Below, piece by piece: positions 1 to 22,675 of a DNA stretch of 64,000 nt. The stretch is from a bacterium HR37 (lineage in GTDB: Bacteria > Desulfobacterota_D > UBA1144 > Nemesobacterales > CSP1-2). The position numbers were made by a program, and so were the translations under genes. The notes under the pieces were generated by a model that had not been told where the DNA came from, searched no databases, and worked only from the letters and a program-made list of their open reading frames with translations. Where the stretch lies: assembly GCA_002898375.1 (NCBI GenBank), contig BEIN01000003.1, forward strand, positions 1 through 64,000, given 5' to 3'. The stretch's first letter is position 1. Every line of letters starts with the position of its first letter.

Positions 1-177
1 CTGTGGGGTTGAGTTACCAAGAGACCTAAATTCTGCATTAAACATTTGGAGATTAGCAGGGTGGGGACCACCCGAAGAGCCTGTGGAGAGGAGAGCAATG
101 CCTGCTGAGTTGGTTCTCAGTGGGCAACTCAACTCTTGGAAGCAGGAAGTTCCCTGCGCAAGCTGGGAGTAGTTCAC
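1..177 (+). mobile_element. Right end of an IS200/IS605-type element with putative omega RNA
   Basis: The tnpB 3' end runs into a structured right end that finishes with GTAGTTCAC (169-177), the typical terminal motif of IS605-group right ends. Visible structure: a hairpin with arms GGGTGG (59-64) and CCACCC (68-73); a long-range pairing of GTTGAGTT (8-15) with AACTCAAC (126-133); and a subterminal hairpin at 151-168 closed by a GCAA tetraloop. In this family the 3' end of the tnpB transcript is the omega RNA, and the roughly 16 nt beyond the element end (178-193) act as guide. The element boundary at 177 is inferred from the motif; the left end is outside the window. Confidence 0.7.
2..172 (+). 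CDS. tnpB: TnpB (RNA-guided nuclease of IS200/IS605 elements), C-terminal fragment
   Basis: Partial gene cut by the left edge of the window; 56 codons remain in frame 2, ending at TAG 170-172. The fragment begins CGVELPRDLNSALNIW, which matches the last RuvC segment of TnpB/OrfB proteins: the final zinc-finger cysteine followed by the RDxNxAxNI motif with the third catalytic aspartate. The tail after the motif is rich in Pro, Glu and Arg, as is usual for these proteins. TnpB is an RNA-guided endonuclease that helps the transposon persist by cutting the emptied donor site. The stop codon lies inside the transposon right end, as expected for this family. Whether the gene is intact upstream cannot be seen. 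Confidence 0.85.
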   Translation, partial: CGVELPRDLNSALNIWRLAGWGPPEEPVERRAMPAELVLSGQLNSWKQEVPCASWE

Positions 178-5481: not shown

Positions 5482-5751
5482 TTATGAAGTGGTCTCTAAG
5501 GAAATTGCCTTTTTTAGCAGCCCCTGGGCAGAAGGGACGTCTATTGATACCATGGAGGGCTGTTTGCACCGAGGACATATTTCATACTTATTTGTTATGT
5601 TCCATATTGGATAGGCAAATGCAGGAATTATAAGTGAAACCCAGGGAACCGAATCTACAAGAAAGCTAAACTTTATCTCGGGGGAACCAACATAATAACA
5701 CATTGTGCAGATCTTTTTCTCAGTATCCTTAAGCGAACCGTTATCTTTCAT
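5482..5751 (-). CDS. Small zinc-ribbon membrane protein, unknown function
   Basis: 89 residues with two CxxC pairs, CTMC near residue 15 and CPRC near residue 59, which together could form a zinc ribbon. Between them is a hydrophobic stretch (about residues 33-50, VDSVPWVSLIIPAFAYPIW) able to span or dip into the membrane. The start follows a GAGGAGAT ribosome site. No family is recognised. It sits on the same strand as its DUF434 and small-cysteine neighbours but with gaps of about 70-80 bp. Confidence 0.6.
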   Translation of the reverse strand: MKDNGSLKDTEKKICTMCYYVGSPEIKFSFLVDSVPWVSLIIPAFAYPIWNITNKYEICPRCKQPSMVSIDVPSAQGLLKKAISLETTS

Positions 5752-5833
5752 CTTTATCTCCTCGGAAAGTTAGGTTTTTTAACGCATCTGTGTCTACAGT
5801 ACTTAACTTAATCATTTTTTAATTGGTTTTCAA

Positions 5834-6502
5834 TCAGTTATACACTCTTCTAAAATCTGTAAGCCTTGCTCTCCATACACGACGCAAAAACCATCCTGCT
5901 AGGTCGAATACACTCTCTGCTTTATCTATTATTACCGAATCTGAGGTTGCCACAAGCTCTGCTGTTTTCAGTATGTAGTCAGGAGAGTTAACAGTCTGTG
6001 CTCTTCCCTTTATGCCTTGTTTCTCTAGAAGCATGTTTATTATTTTGCATAACTCACCGGAAAACGATATAGGTTTATCAAAGTAAAACTCTATAGCTTC
6101 AAGCTCAAGGTTGCTAAGTTCTTTTACAACCAGATTTAGTACCTCTTCTGTAAAGGGACTGAGTTTATAGGAACGATAGACAGCAGCGGAGTCTCTTACC
6201 AGTCCATCGGTTGCAATAAAAACGAAATTACCCTTTCTGTAAGATTCTATTGTAATTAGCTGGTTGTACCCATCTACCTTTAATATCCTTCCTTTTAGGT
6301 GCTTTTCATCTACTGTCTTTTTCATTCGTTCTCTTATCTCTCTTGTTGTGAAAAAACCCCGGTACAGGGTGTTCCTCTCGTTTGTGTTAAGCTGGTAGTG
6401 ATTTCCTACCAGTTCAAGAACCGAGCGTATGGAGTAGCCCCTTCTTTTTAAATACAGGTAATCTCTACTGGCCCTAATTATCTTTTCTGTATTTACAGAC
6501 AT
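5834..6502 (-). CDS. DUF434 family protein
   Basis: 222 residues. The N-terminal half has the DUF434 pattern with SRDYLYLKRRGYSIRSVLELVGNHYQL. The centre has VDGYNQLITIESYRKG and ATDGLVRDSAAVYRSYK, and the C-terminal region has DSVIIDKAESVFDLAGWFL. The conserved acidic residues (VDGYN, TDG, DKAES, DLAG) suggest a metal-dependent nuclease-like fold, but no activity is established for the family that I can name. It is a full-length member found in archaea and some bacteria. Confidence 0.75.
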   Translation of the reverse strand: MSVNTEKIIRASRDYLYLKRRGYSIRSVLELVGNHYQLNTNERNTLYRGFFTTREIRERMKKTVDEKHLKGRILKVDGYNQLITIESYRKGNFVFIATDGLVRDSAAVYRSYKLSPFTEEVLNLVVKELSNLELEAIEFYFDKPISFSGELCKIINMLLEKQGIKGRAQTVNSPDYILKTAELVATSDSVIIDKAESVFDLAGWFLRRVWRARLTDFRRVYN

Positions 6503-6591
6503 ACATTTACTCTGGTTTGTCTAGACTTCAAGCTTAGAGAACAATTTGCCCTGATTCTTAGTATAATACACTTGATGGGTTTTATCTGGTT

Positions 6592-6996
6592 CTAATCTGA
6601 GCTGTCCTTTTTAAATCGAAGGGCTACAGAGTTTATACAGTAGCGAAGACCGGTGGGAGGAGGCCCATCATTAAAGACATGTCCAAGGTGAGCATCACAT
6701 CTACTGCATAGCACCTCTATTCGGATCATTCCGTGACTGTAGTCTGGTTGTGTTCTTACTCTGTCTTCAGCAATTGGTTTCCAGAAACTCGGCCAGCCTG
6801 TACCGGATTCGTACTTTGTTTCAGAGCTAAATAGCTCATTGCCACAACACACGCAAAGATAGATGCCTTTTTCCTTATGGTTGTAGTATTTTCCGGAAAA
6901 GGGCCTTTCAGTTCCTTTCTTTCTGGTAACATAGTATTCTTCAGGGGTAAGTATCTTTTGCCATTCCTCGTCTGTTTTTATAACCTTTTCAACCAT
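6592..6996 (-). CDS. msrB: Peptide-methionine (R)-S-oxide reductase
   Basis: 134 residues, the usual length for a cytoplasmic stand-alone MsrB. It has both zinc-binding CxxC pairs (CVCC near residue 48, CSRC near residue 97), [10 protein letters not shown], and the catalytic segment [13 protein letters not shown] with the active-site cysteine. It reduces methionine-R-sulfoxide in proteins with electrons from thioredoxin. There is no signal peptide and no fused MsrA. It lies about 70 bp downstream of nadA and may share its transcript. Confidence 0.95.
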
Positions 6997-7067
6997 TACT
7001 TGTTTAACCCCCTTTTATTTAATGTTTATTATGAAGATTAGGGGAGATGGCCCTTTGTAAAGTGTGT

Positions 7068-8039
7068 TTAGTTAGCAAGAGAAAGCATTCTTTCTATAGA
7101 TTTTCTGGCTCTTGCTGCTATTTCCTCGGGTACCTTTACTTCGTATACCTCTTCCTTAAGCGAGTTTAAGACCTTTTCAAGGGTAATCATCTTCATGAAT
7201 TTACACACGGCGTTTTCACTTACAGGGTAGAAGGTTTTATCAGGGTTTTCTTTTTTTAGCCTGTGAAGTATTCCTATCTCAGTGGCTACTATAAACTCCT
7301 TTGCTCTTGAGCGTTTTGCGTGGCTTATCATACCACCTGTTGATAGAAAGTAGGTGTTTTTGTTTTCAACAGGGTCACAGGCTGAGTAGTACATATATGA
7401 AGTTGTGCAGCCACACTCAGGATGTATTAACATATCTGCTTCAGGGTGTGCCTCTCTCATTTTTCTTATGTTTTCAGGTCTTATGCCAGCATGAACATGG
7501 CATTCCCCAGGCCAGATGTGAATTTTTCTTCCCGTCACCTTTGCAACATAGGCTCCAAGGAACATATCGGGAAGAAAAAGAATTTCTCTGTCTTCGGGAA
7601 TTGCTTTTATAACCTGTACCGCATTTGAAGAGGTGCAACAGTAGTCGCTTTCGGCTTTGATATCAGCAGTGGTATTAACGTAGGAGACCACAACAGCATT
7701 TGGATGCTCTTTTTTCCACTCTCTTAGTTCTTCAACGTTGATTGAGGCAGCAAGAGAACATCCTGCTTTTAAATCTGGGATGAGTACCTTCTTCTCAGGG
7801 CATATTATGGAGGCAGTTTCTGCCATAAAATGAACCCCACAGAATACAATAACATCAGCATCCGTTTTGGCAGCTTCCTGGGAAAGGGCTAGGGAATCAC
7901 CAATAAAGTCTGCTATATCCTGCACTTCGGGTATCTGATAGTTGTGTGCAAGGATTACAGCATTCTTCTCCCTCTTTAAACGGTTAATCTCTTCTATTAT
8001 CCACTCCTTTTTTTCCATTTCCATTAGCATAGCATTCAC
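7068..8039 (-). CDS. nadA: Quinolinate synthase
   Basis: 323 residues. It has the expected segments AVILAHNYQIPEVQDIADFIGDS, CGVHFMAETASI, LKAGCSLA, CHVHAGI and HPECGC. Three conserved cysteines (in CGVHF, TTSY-region EC-GC and MKMI-adjacent CKF) are placed to ligate the single 4Fe-4S cluster. NadA condenses iminoaspartate with dihydroxyacetone phosphate to make quinolinate, the second step of bacterial NAD synthesis. It is 20 nt downstream of nadC in the nadB-korAB-nadC-nadA run. The enzyme is oxygen-sensitive, which suits an anaerobe or microaerophile. Confidence 0.95.
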   Translation of the reverse strand: MNAMLMEMEKKEWIIEEINRLKREKNAVILAHNYQIPEVQDIADFIGDSLALSQEAAKTDADVIVFCGVHFMAETASIICPEKKVLIPDLKAGCSLAASINVEELREWKKEHPNAVVVSYVNTTADIKAESDYCCTSSNAVQVIKAIPEDREILFLPDMFLGAYVAKVTGRKIHIWPGECHVHAGIRPENIRKMREAHPEADMLIHPECGCTTSYMYYSACDPVENKNTYFLSTGGMISHAKRSRAKEFIVATEIGILHRLKKENPDKTFYPVSENAVCKFMKMITLEKVLNSLKEEVYEVKVPEEIAARARKSIERMLSLAN

Positions 8040-8059
8040 CCAAATTCTTAAATCAAATA

Positions 8060-8899
8060 TTATACCATATAGAGGGCTATATCTAAAGCAGGAGGAGAAT
8101 GGGTAAGTGCACCAATGGATATAAAATCAACACCTGTTTCTGCAATCTTTCTTACGTTTTCAAGATTAATACCTCCGGAGACCTCCGTAAGTGCTCTTCC
8201 CTTTATTATTTCAAGAGCCTCTTTTATGGTTTCAATGGGCATATTATCAAGCATTATTATATCGGCTCCTGCAGAAAGGGCCTCTTTTACCTCTTCAAGG
8301 TTTTTTGTCTCAACCTCTATCTTGAGCAGATGAGGGCCTCTTTCACGAACAGACCTTACTGCCTCTGTTATGCTACCTGCAAGCTTTATGTGGTTCTCTT
8401 TTATAAGTATTCCATCGAAAAGCCCAAACCTGTGGTTGCTTCCGCCACCTATACGCACGGCATATTTATCCAGTATCCTGAGTCCCGGTACGGTTTTTCT
8501 TGTATCAAGTATCTTTACCGGCAATCCTTCTACGGAGTTTACAAACTTAGAGGTAAGGGTTGCTATACCTGAAAGCCTTTGAAGGAAATTTAGGGCTACA
8601 CGTTCCCCTTTGAGTATGGCCTTCTGTAAGCCTTCAATCTCGGCTAGTATATCTTGTGGTTCTACCCTGTCTCCATCCCTTTTTTTTTCATGCCATACTA
8701 TGTTTTGATCCAGTTTCTTAAAAACCCTTTCGGCTACAGAAAGACCAGCTACTACGCCGCTTTCTTTAGCGGTGATTACAGCTTTTGTCTTTTTATCTGT
8801 TGGGAAAAGCGATTCTGTGGTTATATCACCGCTTCCTATATCTTCTTGGAGGGCAGTTTCTATTATCTGTTCGATACGAAGCCAGTCTGGTTCTCTCAT
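8060..8899 (-). CDS. nadC: Nicotinate-nucleotide pyrophosphorylase (carboxylating)
   Basis: 279 residues, family-typical length. It contains EDIGSGDITTE, ERVALNFLQRLSGIATLT, LDTRKTVPGLRILDKYAVRIGGG and NHRFGLFDGILIKENHI, then EVETKNLEE, IMLDNM and EVSGGI. These form the quinolinate and PRPP sites. It turns quinolinate and PRPP into nicotinate mononucleotide, following NadA. It starts 17 nt after korB and ends 20 nt before nadA, so it is transcriptionally linked to both. Confidence 0.96.
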   Translation of the reverse strand: MREPDWLRIEQIIETALQEDIGSGDITTESLFPTDKKTKAVITAKESGVVAGLSVAERVFKKLDQNIVWHEKKRDGDRVEPQDILAEIEGLQKAILKGERVALNFLQRLSGIATLTSKFVNSVEGLPVKILDTRKTVPGLRILDKYAVRIGGGSNHRFGLFDGILIKENHIKLAGSITEAVRSVRERGPHLLKIEVETKNLEEVKEALSAGADIIMLDNMPIETIKEALEIIKGRALTEVSGGINLENVRKIAETGVDFISIGALTHSPPALDIALYMV

Positions 8900-8916
8900 G
8901 CAGGAGGGGTGGGTGA

Positions 8917-9939
8917 TTATCTTACTTCCCAGATATCTCCTGAGTAGAGGAGTTTTGCAATATCCGTTTGAAATCTCTCCTTTGCCTTTTCAATCTGCGT
9001 ATAGAGCATCTCCTCAAATGAGGGTTGAGAAACCCTTCTAAATATTCCCATTGGTACGGGGTATTCAGGCCAGTAGAGCTTTGAGAGTGCAAAAGCAAGG
9101 GAAAGGTTAGTTTCATCGTGAACTGTTAGGTCCTCAGGAGGGTTTTTGGGATCAAACTCCACAATCTCAAACCTTCCGTTCTTAAACCTAAGCCCCTTGT
9201 CTCTGTTCTTACCAAATATAAGCGGTTTTCCGTGCTCAAGAATGAGATTTCTCTCCTCTCTTACCTCTTTTCTGGTAAAGTCGTCAAATACACCGTCATT
9301 ATAGATGTAACAGTTCTGGTATATGTGTATAAAAGATGTCCCTTTGTGTTTGTGAGCTTCCTTTATAAGTTCGGTAAGGTGCTTTACATACGCTGCAGAT
9401 GTTCTTGCCACAAAGGTTGCACCTGATGCAAGGGCTAGTGCTACAGGTTCTGCAGGTTCCTCAATTGTCCCAAAGGGGGCCGATTTATTTACAGTTCCCT
9501 TATTGCTTGTGGGTGAGTACTGTCCCTTTGTCAGTCCATAGACCTTGTTGTCAAAAAGAAGTATGTTTATATCTACGTTTCTTCTCATAACGTGAATCAG
9601 ATGGTTCCCTCCGATGGATATCCCATCTCCATCTCCGGTTATCACCCACACTGAAAGCTCAGGATTTGCTATCTTAACACCAGTGGCAATTGGTATAGGT
9701 CTTCCGTGTATTGTGTGGAATCCATATGTGGACATATAGTAGGGAAGACGTGCAGCACAACCTATTCCTGATATCACCGCATGCTTTTCTTTGGGGATAC
9801 CTAGCTCTGCAAGTGCTGTTTGGAACGCTTTAATAATTGCGTAGTCCTCACAACCTGGACACCATCTTGGTTCCTGGTCAGATTTAAAATCTGAGGGTTT
9901 ATATGTCTTTTCCTCTATTTGTTTTTCTAACGTACTCAT
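8917..9939 (-). CDS. korB: 2-oxoacid:ferredoxin oxidoreductase, beta subunit (KorB-type)
   Basis: 340 residues. It has the cluster and thiamine pyrophosphate motifs of the beta subunit: WCPGCEDYAIIKAFQ, GIGCAARLPYYMSTYGFHTIHGR, GDGDGISIGGNHLIH and FDNKVYGLTKGQYSPTS. A fourth conserved cysteine is in YQNCYIYN. With KorA it would oxidatively decarboxylate 2-oxoglutarate (or run in reverse in CO2 fixation), reducing ferredoxin. There is no separate delta ferredoxin subunit nearby, so this is the two-subunit form. Substrate choice (2-oxoglutarate rather than pyruvate) is inferred from family resemblance. Confidence 0.9.
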   Translation of the reverse strand: MSTLEKQIEEKTYKPSDFKSDQEPRWCPGCEDYAIIKAFQTALAELGIPKEKHAVISGIGCAARLPYYMSTYGFHTIHGRPIPIATGVKIANPELSVWVITGDGDGISIGGNHLIHVMRRNVDINILLFDNKVYGLTKGQYSPTSNKGTVNKSAPFGTIEEPAEPVALALASGATFVARTSAAYVKHLTELIKEAHKHKGTSFIHIYQNCYIYNDGVFDDFTRKEVREERNLILEHGKPLIFGKNRDKGLRFKNGRFEIVEFDPKNPPEDLTVHDETNLSLAFALSKLYWPEYPVPMGIFRRVSQPSFEEMLYTQIEKAKERFQTDIAKLLYSGDIWEVR

Positions 9940-15064: not shown

Positions 15065-17425
15065 ATGAACAACAGACAGCAGTTCATCAATGGAATGACC
15101 CTAATGAGGGCTATCAACGAAAGTGAAGCTGAGCTGGTTATCGAAGAACATCTCCGTGAACGCGGCTGGAACATCACTGACTTCACGGTTACCCGTAAGC
15201 ACTGGCGTGATCATCTGGATGGTGAGGAAGCCGACCGTGTGTTCCTACACGACGGCCGTGTTGTCGCCATCCTGGAGGCAAAAAAGCCGGGTAAAGACCT
15301 TTGGGCTGCCCTTGAGCAAGCTAAGCGCTATGCACGAACCTACAAGAGGAATACAGGACATGATGTCTCGCTAATCTTCGCGAGTGACGGCACGATCTTC
15401 CTCCGACAAAACCTTAAGGCAAACACCTTACCAGAACGCATTCAGAATTTTCCAACTCCTGCTGAGTTTAAGGAGTTTTTCCAACCGCAAGTGGCACAGC
15501 TCCAAGGAACCCTTCGGGACTATCAGCGAGTAGCTGTGTCTCAGGTTCTCGCTTCGGTACAGGCAGGTCGCCGCCGAATGTATCTACAAATGGCTACAGG
15601 TACCGGCAAAACCATCACAGCGGCTGGCGTGATTGCCAAACTTTGGTCGGTGGGTCTCATTCGGCGAACTTTGTTCTTGGTGGACCGTGACGCCTTGGCT
15701 GCTCAGACCGTTAGGAAATTTAAGACGCATCTTGGCGACAACTTCAATATCGAGCGGGCCACTGGAGGCAACGAAGACAAGCATAGGGATGTGCTCGTGG
15801 CTACAATTCAGCACTTGGCAGTGCGCAACAAGTATCTTTCCTTTCCTAAAGACCACTTCAGCCTTGTAATACTCGACGAGTGCCATCGGTCCTATTTCGG
15901 AGACTGGTATCCCGTTCTTGAGCACTTCGCCAGTGGCGGTGCGATCCTCCTGGGTTTGACCGCAACCCCGGCCGACAAAGAGACAATCAACACCGATCGT
16001 TTCTTTACCGACCCCGGCCAGTATCCGGGACCCATTTATCGTTATACCATACGTCAAGCCGAAACAAACCCAGAAGTGCCGGAGTGGGAGCGGCTGGCAC
16101 AGTGCATTCATTTTAAGTTTCAAACTAACGTCGACCTCGAAGGCGTCCACGACATGGGCTTCGACTTCGAGCCTGAGCAACTGGGTCGGGCTGTGGACGT
16201 CCCGCAGAGAAACCGGCTCATTGCTGAAAAGTACTTCGAGATTCTGGGCACACGTCAGCCTGTCAAAACCATAGTCTTTGCTGCCTCCATAGCGCACGCC
16301 AAGAACTTGCGCTACGCGCTTATTGAGAAATACAACGAGCTCAACAATCTCCCGCCCAATGACGCCTCGGCGGAGAAGTTCATCGTGGCGGTCCACAACC
16401 AGATGCCCGGCGCAAGCGCTTTGATTGAGGAGTTCCAAAAGATTACTACCGCTGAGGAGCGCAAAGCGATCATCGAGCAGGCGCACAAGGATCCAAACAT
16501 GGCGCCGCGGCCGATTGTTCTGGTGGGCGTCGGCATGTTGGACACCGGGATTGATGCCCCGGATGTGGAAGTCCTGCTCATGGCGCGCCCGACCAAATCC
16601 AAGGTGCTTTACGTCCAGATGAAGGGTCGTGGCACCCGCAAGTGCCGCGAAACCGGCAAGGAGTTTTATAAGCTCGTGGACTTTGTGGACATCACGAGGC
16701 TTGAACCTGTGATTACCAATGACACGCCAGGCGTGGTGGATGAGCCTCTTGAGGAGGAAGAAGAGCAACTCATTCAGCAGGAGCGCGGGGAGCTCCAAGA
16801 AACTCAATCCGGCGCTACGGCTCGCCAGAAGGTTGGGACCGAGCAGCAGATGGTTATCGCCGATGTCCCCGTGCATCTTGTCTTTTCGGAAACCATCTCC
16901 CCGGCCGTTCTGGAAGAGCTCCGTCGTCAGGTTGAAGCCCAGCTTAAGGGTGGCATGGAGCGCGAGGCGCTTAGGCAGCGGTTCGCGCAGACCCTTCTCT
17001 GCTGGCGCTACTTCAAAGGCGCAACCCCGCCTGACCATTCCTTCCTTGCGACGATGGGCTTTGACCTCTCCACCCTTCGAGACCTCTACGGAGAACCCGA
17101 AGCGACCCTTGAGGACTTCATCGCCGTCGCTATGGGCGAAGCCGACTTCGAGACCCTGCAACGCCGGCGTGAGTTTGAAAAGTGGGCGCTGGGCAAAAGT
17201 CTCAACAGCGCACAGCGAGAAATGGTTTTGATGATCTGCGATTTCAAGCGAGCAAACCCGGGCATTACCCCTGAGCAGATTCTCCGCAGTCACCTGCTCG
17301 AGCAGGCAGGTGGATTGCCACGCATCAAAGCCCTTTTCGGTGGACTTGACCGCCTTTTGCAGCTTGCGGATGAAGCATTGTCTTTGGAAATTGGTGCACC
17401 ACTAAAGGAGGAAAGCCATGGCTAA
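15065..17425 (+). CDS. hsdR: Type I restriction enzyme, R subunit
   Basis: 786 residues. Order of features: an N-terminal nuclease domain with EADRVFLHDGR and ILEAKKPGKD (the D..ExK type), then a superfamily 2 helicase with Walker A MATGTGKTITAAG (about residue 176), LFLVDRDALAAQT, DECHRSYFGDW (about 268) and GLTATPADKET, then the second RecA lobe with MLDTGIDAPDVEVLLM and GRGTRKC, and a C-terminal coiled region that contacts the methylase. It belongs to the EcoEI-like group. Codon use and GC content are clearly unlike the host core, indicating transfer. It overlaps hsdM by 8 bp. Confidence 0.95.
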   Translation: MNNRQQFINGMTLMRAINESEAELVIEEHLRERGWNITDFTVTRKHWRDHLDGEEADRVFLHDGRVVAILEAKKPGKDLWAALEQAKRYARTYKRNTGHDVSLIFASDGTIFLRQNLKANTLPERIQNFPTPAEFKEFFQPQVAQLQGTLRDYQRVAVSQVLASVQAGRRRMYLQMATGTGKTITAAGVIAKLWSVGLIRRTLFLVDRDALAAQTVRKFKTHLGDNFNIERATGGNEDKHRDVLVATIQHLAVRNKYLSFPKDHFSLVILDECHRSYFGDWYPVLEHFASGGAILLGLTATPADKETINTDRFFTDPGQYPGPIYRYTIRQAETNPEVPEWERLAQCIHFKFQTNVDLEGVHDMGFDFEPEQLGRAVDVPQRNRLIAEKYFEILGTRQPVKTIVFAASIAHAKNLRYALIEKYNELNNLPPNDASAEKFIVAVHNQMPGASALIEEFQKITTAEERKAIIEQAHKDPNMAPRPIVLVGVGMLDTGIDAPDVEVLLMARPTKSKVLYVQMKGRGTRKCRETGKEFYKLVDFVDITRLEPVITNDTPGVVDEPLEEEEEQLIQQERGELQETQSGATARQKVGTEQQMVIADVPVHLVFSETISPAVLEELRRQVEAQLKGGMEREALRQRFAQTLLCWRYFKGATPPDHSFLATMGFDLSTLRDLYGEPEATLEDFIAVAMGEADFETLQRRREFEKWALGKSLNSAQREMVLMICDFKRANPGITPEQILRSHLLEQAGGLPRIKALFGGLDRLLQLADEALSLEIGAPLKEESHG

Positions 17426-19067
17426 CACACCGGACTTCAATCAGTTTGGCGAAGAACTCTGGGAAATCGCCAACGTCTTCCGTGACGACGCCCTTCACGC
17501 CACGGAACGCCTGGAAACGTTTAGCCTCTTTCTGTTTCTCAAACTCTGGGACGAGATGGCACTGGAGCAAGAGGAGGCCCTGGGCCGCAAACTGACAGAC
17601 GATGAGCTGGCTATCCCCGAAAAATATCGCTTCCACAAATGGGCGTCAGATCCGGACAAGTACGCCAAAGAAAACGGCTTCGACGACAGCGTGGATTTCT
17701 GCCGACGGATGTTCGACGACCTGGCAAAGCGCAAAGTGCTTGATAAGCATGGCAAGGATATCACCTTTGATGTACGCAGGCTTTTCGGCGGTACCGTGTT
17801 TCGCCTGCGCTACACCACCACCATCCGGCAACTTGTCTCCAAGCTGAACGAGCTCAACCTCCGCGAGATCATGATGCGCGGAGTAGGTGAAACCGGCGAG
17901 CGCTTTGACATCTTCGGGCGTGCCTACGAATACCTGCTCCAGCAGTTCGGCCAGAACAAGGAGTTTGCCGAATACTTCACGCCTCGCCACATCGTGGACC
18001 GCATGGTGCAAATCATTGACCCAGAAATCGGGGAAACCATCTACGACCCCGCCTGTGGCACCGGTGGCTTCATCGTGCGCGCCTTTGAGTGGGTCAAAAA
18101 GAAGATTGAGCGGAAGAAAATCTCAGCCACGGAGAAGGAGCGTTTGCTGCGCACGCTCAAGGAAAAGCATCTCGTTGGCGTGGAGCATGTTCCGCTGGTC
18201 TTCAAGCTCGCCCTGATGAACATGATCCTCCACAAGGACGGCTCCAGCCAGCTGCATAACGACGACAGCCTTTCCAACAAAGCGCAGGACCTCCACAAGA
18301 ACAAGTACGACATCATCCTCGCTAACCCGCCCTTTGGACCCACTAAGCAGGAGCGGCTAGCGCAGTTTGAGTATCACATCAAACTCTACGAAGCGCTCTT
18401 TATCCAGCACATGATGAACGCCTTGCGGCCAGGCGGACGGGCGGCGGTCGTGCTCAAGGAAGGGCTCCTTTTCGATTCCAAGAAGATGCTCCGCAACATC
18501 TGCCGCAAACTCGTGGAACAGTTTGAGGTGCTGGCCGTGATCAGTCTGCCGAACGGCGTCTTCAACCCCTATAGTGGCGCCAAGACCAGCATCGTGGTCT
18601 TCCGCAAGCCGCTCGGGAAGGACGATGTGCGCACCTCGAAGGTCTGGTTCTACCGGGTGGAGAGCGACGGCCGCGACCTGGGCGCTACCCGCAGACCCTT
18701 GCCCGACTTTGCCACCGACGGCGACCTTAAGCATATGGTTTCCCTTTTCCCTTACACCTGGCGCCACGAAAAGGACGGGGGCGTGCGGGCCATTCTCAAG
18801 GCTGACGACCTTAAGCGGTTTGAAAGGGAAAAATCCTGGTGGGCCACCATAGACCAGATTCGCGCCACGGACTACAACCTCACCGCTGGCCGTTACTGCC
18901 CGCACCAGGCGGAAGCCGTCGAGCACGAGAAGCCCGAAGTCCTCATCAATCGCCTGCTAGAGCTGGAGGAGGAGATCACCGAAGACCTGCGCCAACTTTT
19001 GGCGATGGTGTCGGGAAGTAATCTTGCCGAAGTATCACAAACAAACCAAAACGGAGGTGAACTATGA
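17418..19067 (+). CDS. hsdM: Type I DNA methyltransferase, M subunit
   Basis: 549 residues. The N-terminal helical domain carries LETFSLFLFLKLWDEMALEQ. The N6-adenine methylase domain has AEYFTPRHIVDRMV, the AdoMet motif DPACGTGGFIV near residue 210 and the catalytic NPPFG near residue 302. Together with HsdS it modifies one adenine on each strand of a bipartite target. The start ATG at 17418 lies inside hsdR, behind an AAAGGAGGAAA ribosome site. Its TGA overlaps the ATG of the next gene as ATGA. Confidence 0.97.
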   Translation: MANTPDFNQFGEELWEIANVFRDDALHATERLETFSLFLFLKLWDEMALEQEEALGRKLTDDELAIPEKYRFHKWASDPDKYAKENGFDDSVDFCRRMFDDLAKRKVLDKHGKDITFDVRRLFGGTVFRLRYTTTIRQLVSKLNELNLREIMMRGVGETGERFDIFGRAYEYLLQQFGQNKEFAEYFTPRHIVDRMVQIIDPEIGETIYDPACGTGGFIVRAFEWVKKKIERKKISATEKERLLRTLKEKHLVGVEHVPLVFKLALMNMILHKDGSSQLHNDDSLSNKAQDLHKNKYDIILANPPFGPTKQERLAQFEYHIKLYEALFIQHMMNALRPGGRAAVVLKEGLLFDSKKMLRNICRKLVEQFEVLAVISLPNGVFNPYSGAKTSIVVFRKPLGKDDVRTSKVWFYRVESDGRDLGATRRPLPDFATDGDLKHMVSLFPYTWRHEKDGGVRAILKADDLKRFEREKSWWATIDQIRATDYNLTAGRYCPHQAEAVEHEKPEVLINRLLELEEEITEDLRQLLAMVSGSNLAEVSQTNQNGGEL

Positions 19068-19372
19068 GCATCACAATTGGTAAGTACAGCTTCGAAGGGC
19101 CTTATGACTCGACAGATTCGCTCCAGGATCGCTCAGGCGTGTATGCAATCCTGGATCAGCGGCCAGATGGGTATCATCTCATCGACGTAGGCGAATCGTC
19201 CCAGGTGAAAACGCGGGTTGAGACTCATGACCGCGAAGGCTGCTGGCAGCGTCATTCACTCGGGACGCTAATGGTTGCGGTCTTATACACACCGCACTTG
19301 CAGCAACCAGGGCGTTGGGCAATCGAGCAGGAAATCCGACGGCAATACAACCCGCCCTGTGGCGAACGATGA
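19064..19372 (+). CDS. GIY-YIG-like small protein in R-M operon
   Basis: 102 residues. It has SGVYAILDQ followed about 10 residues later by HLIDVGESSQVKTRVETHDR, which resembles the paired GIY and YIG strands, the arginine of the nuclease core and a possible late glutamate (EQEI). The tyrosine of YIG is replaced by an aspartate (IDVGES), and catalytic competence is unclear. It starts in an ATGA overlap with the hsdM stop and is therefore translationally coupled. GIY-YIG-like proteins occur beside some type I R-M systems; the role here is unknown. Confidence 0.6.
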   Translation: MSITIGKYSFEGPYDSTDSLQDRSGVYAILDQRPDGYHLIDVGESSQVKTRVETHDREGCWQRHSLGTLMVAVLYTPHLQQPGRWAIEQEIRRQYNPPCGER

Positions 19373-19485
19373 GAATGGACATCGTTTGGGAATTTGCTGG
19401 ATCCTATCGCGCGGGCCGCGTGCCCAGATACCTGAAAGCCGCCGACACGCTGGCTTTCCTGGATCAAGCGAAGAACGTTTTCTGA
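19369..19485 (+). CDS. 38-codon ORF between GIY-YIG-like gene and hsdS
   Basis: The ORF reads 38 residues (starting MRMDIVWEFAGSYRAG, ending DQAKNVF). Its ATG overlaps the previous stop as ATGA. Its own TGA overlaps an in-frame ATG of the hsdS frame (19485), with the GGAGG of hsdS just beyond. The codons are GC3-rich, like the rest of the island. No ribosome site of its own is visible, so translation would depend on coupling. I recognise no family. It could be a small accessory protein, an inhibitor or a coupling device. Confidence 0.4.
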   Translation: MRMDIVWEFAGSYRAGRVPRYLKAADTLAFLDQAKNVF

Positions 19486-19499
19486 TGGGAGGACGGGCG

Positions 19500-21170
19500 A
19501 TGACCAGGAAGAAGCTACCCAAGGGATGGCGGTGGGCTAGGCTGGGAGCGAGGGAAATTGCAACTGTCATTATGGGGCAGTCGCCGCCGGGGAGCACATA
19601 CAACGGAGAAGGCCGCGGACTGCCGTTCTATCAAGGAAAAGCCGACTTTGGAGATGTGTCACCCACTCCCAGGGTGTGGTGCTCAGCACCCCGGAAAACT
19701 GCGGAAGTGGGAGATATCCTCCTCTCTGTTCGGGCGCCCGTCGGACCGACGAACCTCGCGAGTGAGCAGTGCTGTATTGGACGGGGACTTGCCGCGATAC
19801 GAGGTGAAAGAAACGCGCTGACGCTCTACTTGTACTTCTGGTTCAAGCACGTAGAACCGTGGCTCAGCGGGCAAGGAGAAGGCAGCACGTTCACAGCGAT
19901 CGGGAAAGAGAGGATCGAGAGCCTTTCTGTTCCCCTCCCCCCGCTCCCCGTCCAGGAGCGGATTGTGCAGATCCTTCAGAAGGCCGACCAGATCCGCCGC
20001 AAGCGCAAAGAGGCGCTGGAGCTGGCGGATAAGATACTGCCGGCCCTCTTTCTGGAAATGTTCGGCGACCCAGCGACCAATCCAAAGGGGTGGCCGACGG
20101 CACCAATAGGCGCTTTGGTGCATTTTGACACATTTCAGATTAGGCCAGAACCAGGGAAGACGTATCTCTATTTGGCCCCAGAACACATCGAGTCACACAC
20201 TGGTAACTATAGTGGGCCTCATCCCACTGACGGTCGAGAGCTTGGTAGTGCGAAACATCCATTTACTTCGGAGCACGTGCTTTATTGTAAGCTTCGTCCC
20301 TACCTGAATAAAGTTGCCTTACCGCATACTGATGGCATCTGCAGCACCGAACTGGTGCCTCTCCGCCCTGGCCCTAAACTATTGAGGGAGTTTTTGGCTA
20401 TCTACCTTCGCCTTCCGTTCTTTGTTGCTACCGCTGTGCACAAATCACAGGGAACAAAAATGCCCCGCTTTGGCCCAGAGCTCATGAAACAAGAGATGAT
20501 GATCGTTCCGCCTCTTCCATTACAACATTCATTTTGTCAACAAGTGAACCAGCTCATGGAGGCTTCGCGCTGGTTAAAAGAGGGCTTGAGCCTGTCTTCC
20601 AGTTCTTTTGATGGACTCTTGGCCCGCGCCTTCACTGGCGAGCTGACTGCCGAATGGGAAGCCGCCAACGCCGACTGGATTGCCGAGCGGCAAGCCCTGT
20701 ACGAGCGCCTGCCCCGGTTGCTCCTCTTGGCGCTGCTCGTGGAAAAGGCGAGGCGTGCGGGTCGAGCGGCGGCCGAGGTACTGGTGACGGCGCTGATGAA
20801 GTACGCCTTCCTCCTCCAGATGGAGGGAAGCGCCTCACGCCGACGGTTCTACCACTTCGTCCCGTATCACTACGGACCCTTTGCCAAAGAGCTTTACACG
20901 GACCTGGAGGCGCTTCAAAAAGAGGGCCTTGTGCGGGTAGACCACGACACCGAAGAGGACAAAACAAGGATCAAAGTGATTGACCCCGCCAAAGCTGAAG
21001 AAGCCCTCTCCGCCCTGCCCGATGACCTCAAGGAGGACGCGGCAACCATTGTTGAAACCTACGGCGACCTCGATCACAGTGCCTTGCTGGAGGCGGTTTA
21101 TGAGAAATATCCTGCCTACGCCCGCAAAAGCCGCCTCAAACAGAACAAGAGAAAAGCACCAAGGGGGTGA
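19500..21170 (+). CDS. hsdS: Type I specificity subunit (HsdS) with extra C-terminal Panacea/SocA-like domain
   Basis: About 556 residues from ATG 19500, chosen because GGAGG at 19488-19492 is well spaced; the open frame goes further upstream without support. Target recognition domain 1 is about residues 1-150, followed by the conserved spacer helix (QERIVQILQKADQIRRKRKEAL). Domain 2 is about 195-340, followed by the second helical part ending DGLLARAFTGELTAEW. A domain of about 155 residues then follows, with ALMKYAFLLQMEG, FVPYHYGPFAKELYTDLEAL and GLVRV. This resembles the Panacea/DUF4065 antitoxin-type fold and is not part of ordinary HsdS. The fusion assignment is by pattern only. Confidence 0.85.
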   Translation: MTRKKLPKGWRWARLGAREIATVIMGQSPPGSTYNGEGRGLPFYQGKADFGDVSPTPRVWCSAPRKTAEVGDILLSVRAPVGPTNLASEQCCIGRGLAAIRGERNALTLYLYFWFKHVEPWLSGQGEGSTFTAIGKERIESLSVPLPPLPVQERIVQILQKADQIRRKRKEALELADKILPALFLEMFGDPATNPKGWPTAPIGALVHFDTFQIRPEPGKTYLYLAPEHIESHTGNYSGPHPTDGRELGSAKHPFTSEHVLYCKLRPYLNKVALPHTDGICSTELVPLRPGPKLLREFLAIYLRLPFFVATAVHKSQGTKMPRFGPELMKQEMMIVPPLPLQHSFCQQVNQLMEASRWLKEGLSLSSSSFDGLLARAFTGELTAEWEAANADWIAERQALYERLPRLLLLALLVEKARRAGRAAAEVLVTALMKYAFLLQMEGSASRRRFYHFVPYHYGPFAKELYTDLEALQKEGLVRVDHDTEEDKTRIKVIDPAKAEEALSALPDDLKEDAATIVETYGDLDHSALLEAVYEKYPAYARKSRLKQNKRKAPRG

Positions 21171-21174
21171 AACA

Positions 21175-21744
21175 ATGGAAAGCAACGAAGTCAACACGGC
21201 TTTCGAGATTCTCCTGGAAGAAATCGAGCTTGTCGCCAACCAGCTCAACGAAGACGGCGCGCACGCCTTCAAGGAAGGCGATTACGATAGGGCTCGGCAC
21301 GCCATAGAGGAAGCAACTCGACTGGCAGACTTCCGCGAGAAGGTCAAGGCGCTTCAAAAAGAGTGGGCCTCTCTCCTGAGCAAGAAACCCCAGCGCCTAA
21401 AAAAGACTGTTCGCACGGTTAAAAGCCGCTTGCCGCGAGGACTGCGTACCCCAGAGGAGGCTTTTCGTCGGCCCATCCTGGAAGCGCTCGTAGAGCTCGG
21501 CGGAAAAGGTTCCATCGGCGATGTCCTCGACCTAGTGGAGGAAAAAATGCGCGCTCATTTGACGAAGTACGATTTTGAGCCGTTGCCGTCGGATCCCAAG
21601 TCCATTCGTTGGCGCAACACAGCCCAGTGGTGCCGCAATAACCTTGTTCGCGAGGGCTTAATGAAAGCGGATTCGCCTTACGGAATATGGGAGATATCAG
21701 AGTTAGGACGAAAGGCATTGCAAAATGAAAGTGCGCTATCGTGA
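21175..21744 (+). CDS. Winged-helix protein with Mrr-N-like C-terminal domain
   Basis: 189 residues from ATG 21175, preceded by AAGGGGGTGA. The N-terminal half is helical and charged (ELVANQLNEDGAHAFKEGD, then RHAIEEATRLADFREKVKAL), like a small coiled-coil or TPR-like hairpin. The C-terminal half (about residues 95-185) reads ALVELGGKGSIGDVLDLVE and WRNTAQWCRNNLVREGLM, then GIWEISELGRKAL. This is the winged helix seen at the N-terminus of Mrr-type restriction proteins, here without a nuclease. It begins 4 nt after hsdS and overlaps the DUF3644 gene by 20 bp. A DNA-binding accessory or regulatory role is inferred. Confidence 0.65.
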   Translation: MESNEVNTAFEILLEEIELVANQLNEDGAHAFKEGDYDRARHAIEEATRLADFREKVKALQKEWASLLSKKPQRLKKTVRTVKSRLPRGLRTPEEAFRRPILEALVELGGKGSIGDVLDLVEEKMRAHLTKYDFEPLPSDPKSIRWRNTAQWCRNNLVREGLMKADSPYGIWEISELGRKALQNESALS

Positions 21745-22675
21745 GCTTCTGGATCGAGCCATTGCTGCCACGGTGGCAGCAATTGATGTTTACAACAAGC
21801 CTGACTTCCCATACCGGGCTGAGTCCTTCACGATTCTGGCTCTAAACGGCTGGGAGCTTCTTCTCCAAGCGAAATGGCTCCAAGGTAATGGCAATCGGTT
21901 AACCAGCCTTTATGTGTTAACTGGCAAGGGAAGACCTAAATACAAGCGAACTCGCTCACGTAACTTCATGATGTACAACCTCAACTATCTAGCCCAGAAG
22001 CTAACGGAGCAAAGGCAGCTCGATGAAAACGCCCGGCGGAATCTTGAGGTGCTTGCAGAACTGCGTGACACAGCGGTGCACTTTTATCATCGCAGTCCCA
22101 AACTGGCTAAGCGGGTGCAAGAGGTAGGGATGGCCTGCCTGAAGAACTTCGTTGCTGCCGTTCAGGACTGGTTCGGCGAGGACCTATCGCGGTTTAACTT
22201 TTACCTGATGCCCCTTTCGTTTGTGACCCCACCGCCGAGCGTGGAAACGATTCAGCTAAATAAAGCAGAGAAAGCGTTTCTCCGATTCTTAGAGACCCTG
22301 ACCCAGCAGGACGACAACCCAACAAACCGCTACTCGGTAGCCGTCAATATTGAGGTTCGCTTCGTGCGGTCCAAGTTGGTCTCTGCAACACCGGTGCGAG
22401 TTACAAATGACTCTGATGCCCCCGCTGTTCAACTAACGGAAGAAGACCTTCGCGCACGGTACCCTTGGGACTATGCCGAACTTACCCACCAGTGCAAGCA
22501 GCGTTATCCGGGATTTAAGGTTAACAAGTCGTATCACGAGCGTCGTAAGTGCTTAGCACAAGATCAAAGATATGCTTACGTTCGAGCATTAGATCCACAC
22601 AATCCGAAATCAACCAAGAAGACCTTTTACAGCCAGGCGATTCTTGAAAAGTTGGATCCAAACATTACTTCTTAG
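21725..22675 (+). CDS. DUF3644 family protein
   Basis: 316 residues. The N-terminal part has the DUF3644 pattern, with YRAESFTILALNGWELLLQAKWL and then LAELRDTAVHFYHRSPKLAKRVQEVG. The C-terminal part (about residues 230-316) is a basic region with LRARYPWDYAELTHQCKQRYPGFKVNK, resembling a helix-turn-helix. DUF3644 genes often lie beside R-M and other defence genes; the fold recalls HEPN-like helical ribonucleases, but no RX4-6H motif is certain here (RDTAVHF is the closest). It ends the coupled operon. Function unknown. Confidence 0.75.
   Translation: MKVRYRELLDRAIAATVAAIDVYNKPDFPYRAESFTILALNGWELLLQAKWLQGNGNRLTSLYVLTGKGRPKYKRTRSRNFMMYNLNYLAQKLTEQRQLDENARRNLEVLAELRDTAVHFYHRSPKLAKRVQEVGMACLKNFVAAVQDWFGEDLSRFNFYLMPLSFVTPPPSVETIQLNKAEKAFLRFLETLTQQDDNPTNRYSVAVNIEVRFVRSKLVSATPVRVTNDSDAPAVQLTEEDLRARYPWDYAELTHQCKQRYPGFKVNKSYHERRKCLAQDQRYAYVRALDPHNPKSTKKTFYSQAILEKLDPNITS

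Follow-up and report, generated by a model that had tools for sequence, protein, structure and literature searches.

Organization of the type I R-M locus

The window analyzed here, a 64,000-nucleotide stretch of bacterial DNA, carries on its plus strand one operon composed of hsdR, hsdM, a small open reading frame (ORF), hsdS, an Mrr_N gene, and a DUF3644 gene. The presence of hsdR, hsdM, and hsdS in a single operon identifies a type I restriction-modification (R-M) system. The restriction subunit HsdR (786 aa; positions 15065 to 17425) matched the Pfam families ResIII (6.6e-38), HSDR_N, and EcoEI_R_C above the cut-off, and the N6-adenine methyltransferase subunit HsdM (549 aa; 17418 to 19067) matched N6_Mtase (9e-60) and HsdM_N. 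The hsdS ORF (19500 to 21170; 556 aa) has an ATG start with GGGAGG just 5' of it. Its target-recognition part (19500 to 20702), with two domains and conserved helices, matched Methylase_S (1.7e-17) and is followed by a C-terminal winged-helix domain (20703 to 21150). Further downstream lie a gene for a 189-aa winged-helix Mrr_N protein (21175 to 21744; Pfam Mrr_N, 8.3e-15), for which we found no toxin-family match in Pfam, NCBIfam, or PADLOC, and the gene for a 316-aa DUF3644 HEPN protein (21725 to 22675), a predicted RNase toxin; the beginning of its gene shares 20 nt with the end of the Mrr_N gene.

The R-M cassette (15065 to 22675) forms a GC island of 50 to 58% against 38 to 43% in the flanks, so the operon was probably gained horizontally as a cassette. 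The slot between hsdM and hsdS holds a 102-aa ORF (19064 to 19372) that is GIY-YIG-like by eye, had no Pfam match, and matched PADLOC PDC-S14 weakly (1e-4). In genome G068 (PF01850) and in the WOR-3 contig L006, the same slot is occupied by a PIN-domain gene, so it seems to accept different small nucleases.

HsdS ends in a folded domain

An earlier note on this DNA had claimed that HsdS carries about 155 extra residues after its two normal target domains. This extra part is present, with the motifs MKYAFLL near 20796 and YHYGPFAKEL near 20865, but its start, placed by the note at 20760, lies slightly upstream, at about 20703 (VIA range 18..167 of the model). The structure prediction that the note had proposed as a check gave a folded domain of about 150 residues: AlphaFold2, run on 15 sequences, modeled the HsdS C terminus with a pLDDT of 92.5 and a pTM of 0.86, which rules out an extended helical spacer. 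We collected relatives of the domain from genomes, plasmids, and viral contigs. Eleven aligned relatives have K50, F53, L54, F69, P71, G75, P76, and Y82 in common, and conservation across this 11-member family follows the pattern K, FL, F-PY-YGPF, Y, L and a C-terminal L..VY..YP. The domain is 68 to 75% identical to its counterpart in two other HsdS proteins, whereas the entire HsdS is only about 43% identical. Because of these shared residues, the confident fold, and an identity above the level of the whole protein, we consider the extra part a real domain. A chance motif was ruled out by the relatives and by the shuffled-profile controls described below.

The PADLOC Specificity_I model PDLC03184 spans the window HsdS end to end (6 to 552 of 554, 1110 bits), C-terminal domain included; the fused architecture is thus already in the PADLOC library and is more than chance, although the model is labeled as a specificity subunit only and gives the C terminus no function. 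In a full-length HsdS model, the two target domains and long conserved helices (149 to 177 and 339 to 377) precede the C-terminal domain; over the C terminus, this model is of low confidence owing to its shallow alignment. No second copy of the domain was found in the genome from which the window derives.

The domain is related to Panacea and to the DarG C-terminal domain

The earlier note had assigned the extra part to the Panacea/SocA (DUF4065) fold. This assignment holds as a divergent kinship: the window domain scored 17.1 bits (E value, 0.011) against PF13274, below the Pfam gathering cut-off of 25.7 bits, and is therefore a relative of Panacea and not a PF13274 member by Pfam's rule. PF13274 was nevertheless matched by 8 of the 11 family members (best, 1.1e-5), and one member, WP_050049451.1, was listed as a DUF4065 protein by Kurata et al. 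2022 (PMC8832971). A search of the window's own genome with the PF13274 profile found nothing. When the 11-member profile was aligned by hhalign with 28 canonical PF13274 domains, the match reached a probability of 90.3 and a score of 43.6 over 124 columns, covering the whole domain with its YGP motif. All controls scored lower (100 column-shuffled profiles, at most 22.8; reversed profile, 10.0; other window proteins, below 16), so the absence of DUF4065 homology, which the note had named as evidence against its claim, was not borne out. Panacea/SocA is a small antitoxin of a two-gene system, whereas the window domain is a C-terminal fusion to HsdS.

The closest solved relative is the C-terminal domain (CTD) of DarG. 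The DarTG complex 7yk3 was the only PDB match under 1e-3 in Foldseek (E value, 5.6e-4; probability, 1.0), and VIA-align superposed the winged-helix fold on the DarG chain with a Z score of 13.3 over 143 residues; winged helices of ORC (Z, ≤11.8) and MarR-like proteins (Z, about 8) ranked lower. The NCBIfam DarG model matched the window domain at 9.6e-7. Conversely, the DarG of genome G295 matched the family profile at 3.5e-9 in a single-sequence comparison, on the stretch GRT..QK..F..YGPFS. The window protein is not itself a DarG, since HsdS target domains take the place of the N-terminal ADP-ribosyl-glycohydrolase macrodomain. DarT was not found in the window's own genome by a search that was positive in G295, and we discarded it as a hidden target of the HsdS domain.

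Profile and fold together place the domain in the Panacea/DarG-CTD winged-helix superfamily, which contains two experimentally known toxin-neutralizing domains. The sequence comparisons and the predicted model provide good support for its being homologous to antitoxin domains. Standalone Panacea neutralizes toxins directly (PMC10440598), and the DarG CTD occludes the DarT active site by mimicry of single-stranded DNA (PMC11481870).

Distribution of the fusion and of the domain

We found the fusion at four loci: the window, G068, the MAG contig L005, and the archaeal Sulfolobus islandicus plasmid pYN01 (L037). Domain identity to the window was 75% for G068, 68% for L005, and 37% for Sulfolobus. 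Additional genomes searched for fusions returned only G068 again, phage records held no copy of the window domain, and the HsdS relatives found in viral contigs were without the C-terminal domain. In the tree, the four HsdS domains formed one group (88/66) adjoining a DUF488-fused domain (86/91). A single origin of the four fusions is likely on these sequences, the long Sulfolobus branch keeping it short of proof.

In L006, whose HsdR and HsdM are 76% and 75% identical to those of the window, HsdS terminates at ELTAEWEAANADWIAEQVTFHERQASG, just before the domain, which is thus a removable module. This locus bears on the idea that the domain has nothing to do with a toxin and serves the R-M enzyme itself, contributing an additional winged helix that contacts DNA or helps HsdM and HsdR assemble. 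The winged-helix fold with its ORC and MarR matches would suit such a role, as would the L005 domain, conserved about as well as its HsdM (68% versus 75% identity to the window), and the presence of the domain at loci with no toxin seen nearby. However, L006 indicates that this enzyme lineage can exist without the domain, and the best structural match is to a domain that binds a toxin rather than DNA. Moreover, the recognition helix and wing are acidic in the HsdS members (net charge, −2 to −6), which argues against a plain DNA-binding wing. We regard service to the enzyme as unlikely.

Relatives of the domain also occur in other settings. In viral contigs and one genome, we repeatedly found a member of the family as a separate protein whose gene is followed by one for a proteasome-fold protein (L042, 4854 to 6073; L046, 4956 to 6184; L004, 264 to 1459), the partner being PF00227 in L042 and L004. 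This two-gene pair is not known from the literature. In L034 (1435 to 3155), and also in L003, L044, L085 to L087, L090, and L097, the domain is fused to DUF488. The L034 fusion and the next gene match the PADLOC candidate PDC-M19A/B; in the tree, the N-terminal half of PDC-M19A (PADLOC, 5.9e-20) groups as sister to the HsdS domain, but its partners are DUF488 and PDC-M19B, whereas that of the window domain is an R-M system.

Such different company (DUF488 fusions, proteasome-fold pairs, DarG) favors the main rival to the silencing model presented below, namely, that the domain senses a factor from phage or host, or offers it a docking site, and regulates the R-M complex itself or several effectors, DUF3644 being one of several interchangeable neighbors. 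In multidomain PanA proteins, neutralization often falls to a domain other than Panacea, for which a sensory role has been proposed (Ernits et al., PMC10440598). Retention of the domain without DUF3644 in L005 and Sulfolobus points the same way. On the other side, the ligand is purely putative, and the overlapping hsdS and DUF3644 reading frames in G068 suggest a specific partner there. We consider a sensor or docking role possible, if on the unlikely side.

The DUF3644 protein is a candidate toxin partner

The window DUF3644 protein matched Pfam DUF3644 at 1.1e-48 (165.7 bits against a cut-off of 27.6) and PADLOC PDC-S19 at 5e-121; no PDB homologue was found by sequence. DUF3644 is a HEPN family (PMC3710099), and residues 114 to 119, RDTAVH, form an Rx4H motif, with R and H invariant among the 12 proteins compared. 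By sequence, a role as a HEPN RNase toxin is credible for this protein, which is the likeliest partner of the HsdS domain.

A DUF3644 gene is present at two of the four fused-HsdS loci. In G068, it comes directly after the fused hsdS without Mrr_N, its first 4 nt shared with the end of hsdS. L005 and pYN01 retain the domain without DUF3644 nearby, and in G205 and G349, DUF3644 follows an HsdS without the domain. L006 is without both. Plasmid DUF3644 genes have no R-M neighbors and neither a fused HsdS nor Mrr_N. Canonical Panacea was not found next to the DUF3644 loci that we fetched, nor were close DUF3644 relatives found in viral contigs. The domain and DUF3644 each being found without the other at several loci, an obligate pairing is ruled out. 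The association is suggestive and rests on few, related loci: the two loci with both partners are recently related (HsdM, 91.5% identical), so they amount to nearly one observation. Between these two, identity is similar for the domain (75%) and DUF3644 (71%) and lower than for HsdM or HsdR (87%), a pattern that may simply reflect an exchange of hsdS and its downstream gene as one block.

Two further DUF3644 settings were observed. At L074 of G205 (5772 to 9269), a gene for a TIR-domain protein (TIR_2, 1.2e-14) comes after those for the domain-less HsdS and DUF3644. At L163 of G295 (2 to 2770), a DUF3644 HEPN gene lies immediately upstream of DarT-DarG, and that DarG carries a domain of the HsdS-domain family.

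At L070 of G068 (5688 to 9699), genes for Mrr_N and DUF3644 proteins, 47% and 61% identical to those of the window, follow an MZB helicase gene in one operon. This second setting makes Mrr_N-DUF3644 a transferable pair, as expected if DUF3644 were in fact neutralized or regulated by the Mrr_N protein, with the HsdS domain neutralizing something else, encoded elsewhere or lost. Yet at the fused locus of G068, hsdS is followed by DUF3644 with no Mrr_N, and the plasmid genes dispense with both, making this explanation very unlikely in our estimate.

A model for toxin silencing by the R-M complex

We favor a model, to which we give a probability of about 0.4, in which the R-M complex silences the DUF3644 RNase via the HsdS domain in a PrrC-like manner. 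Its starting points are the homology and the gene order; binding, toxicity, silencing, and release would be as follows. The HsdS C-terminal domain would be a toxin-docking module that, in the intact HsdR/HsdM/HsdS complex, binds the downstream-encoded HEPN RNase and keeps it inactive, perhaps by mimicking nucleic acid with acidic residues as DarG does; the acidic recognition helix and wing would fit this. Once a phage had bound, degraded, or inactivated the R-M complex, the RNase would be released and could then act as a second line of defense by abortive infection, as in PrrC/EcoprrI. For this model we count the shared operon in the window, the 4-nt overlap in G068, the joint absence in L006, the parallel divergence of domain and DUF3644, the G295 arrangement beside DarT-DarG, and the failure to find DarT in the window's genome. 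Against it we count the loci at which either partner stands alone and the sensory role proposed for multidomain PanA. The antitoxin role and addiction raised by the earlier note, together with PrrC-like guarding, make a plausible hypothesis, if short of an even chance. That HsdS itself is the antitoxin of the HEPN RNase, uniting sequence recognition and toxin lock in one protein so that a phage removing the R-M complex frees the toxin, is a tentative proposal.

The EcoprrI type I R-M system silences the co-encoded HEPN RNase PrrC (PMC3710099; PMC2610378). The window likewise encodes a HEPN protein with a type I R-M system. PrrC is an ABC ATPase fused to HEPN, whereas Pfam matched only DUF3644, with no ABC ATPase part, in the window protein. 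The antitoxin-like domain built into HsdS is a feature of the window; EcoprrI is not known to have one.

A literature search (open-licence papers) for HsdS together with Panacea returned unrelated matches only, none describing the fusion. An R-M-linked HEPN toxin was already known, and the fused architecture was present without comment in the PADLOC specificity model; what is new is the placement of an antitoxin-like module inside HsdS, together with a connection to a HEPN toxin that can be tested. The fusion is common to bacteria and an archaeal plasmid, and Panacea and the DarG CTD come together in a single superfamily whose members are partnered with R-M systems, DUF488, or proteasome-fold proteins. 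That R-M complexes restrain HEPN toxins is a long-standing idea, well known only for PrrC. If our model is true, the HsdS domain would give this idea a direct physical link, one that could be tested with two genes in E. coli.
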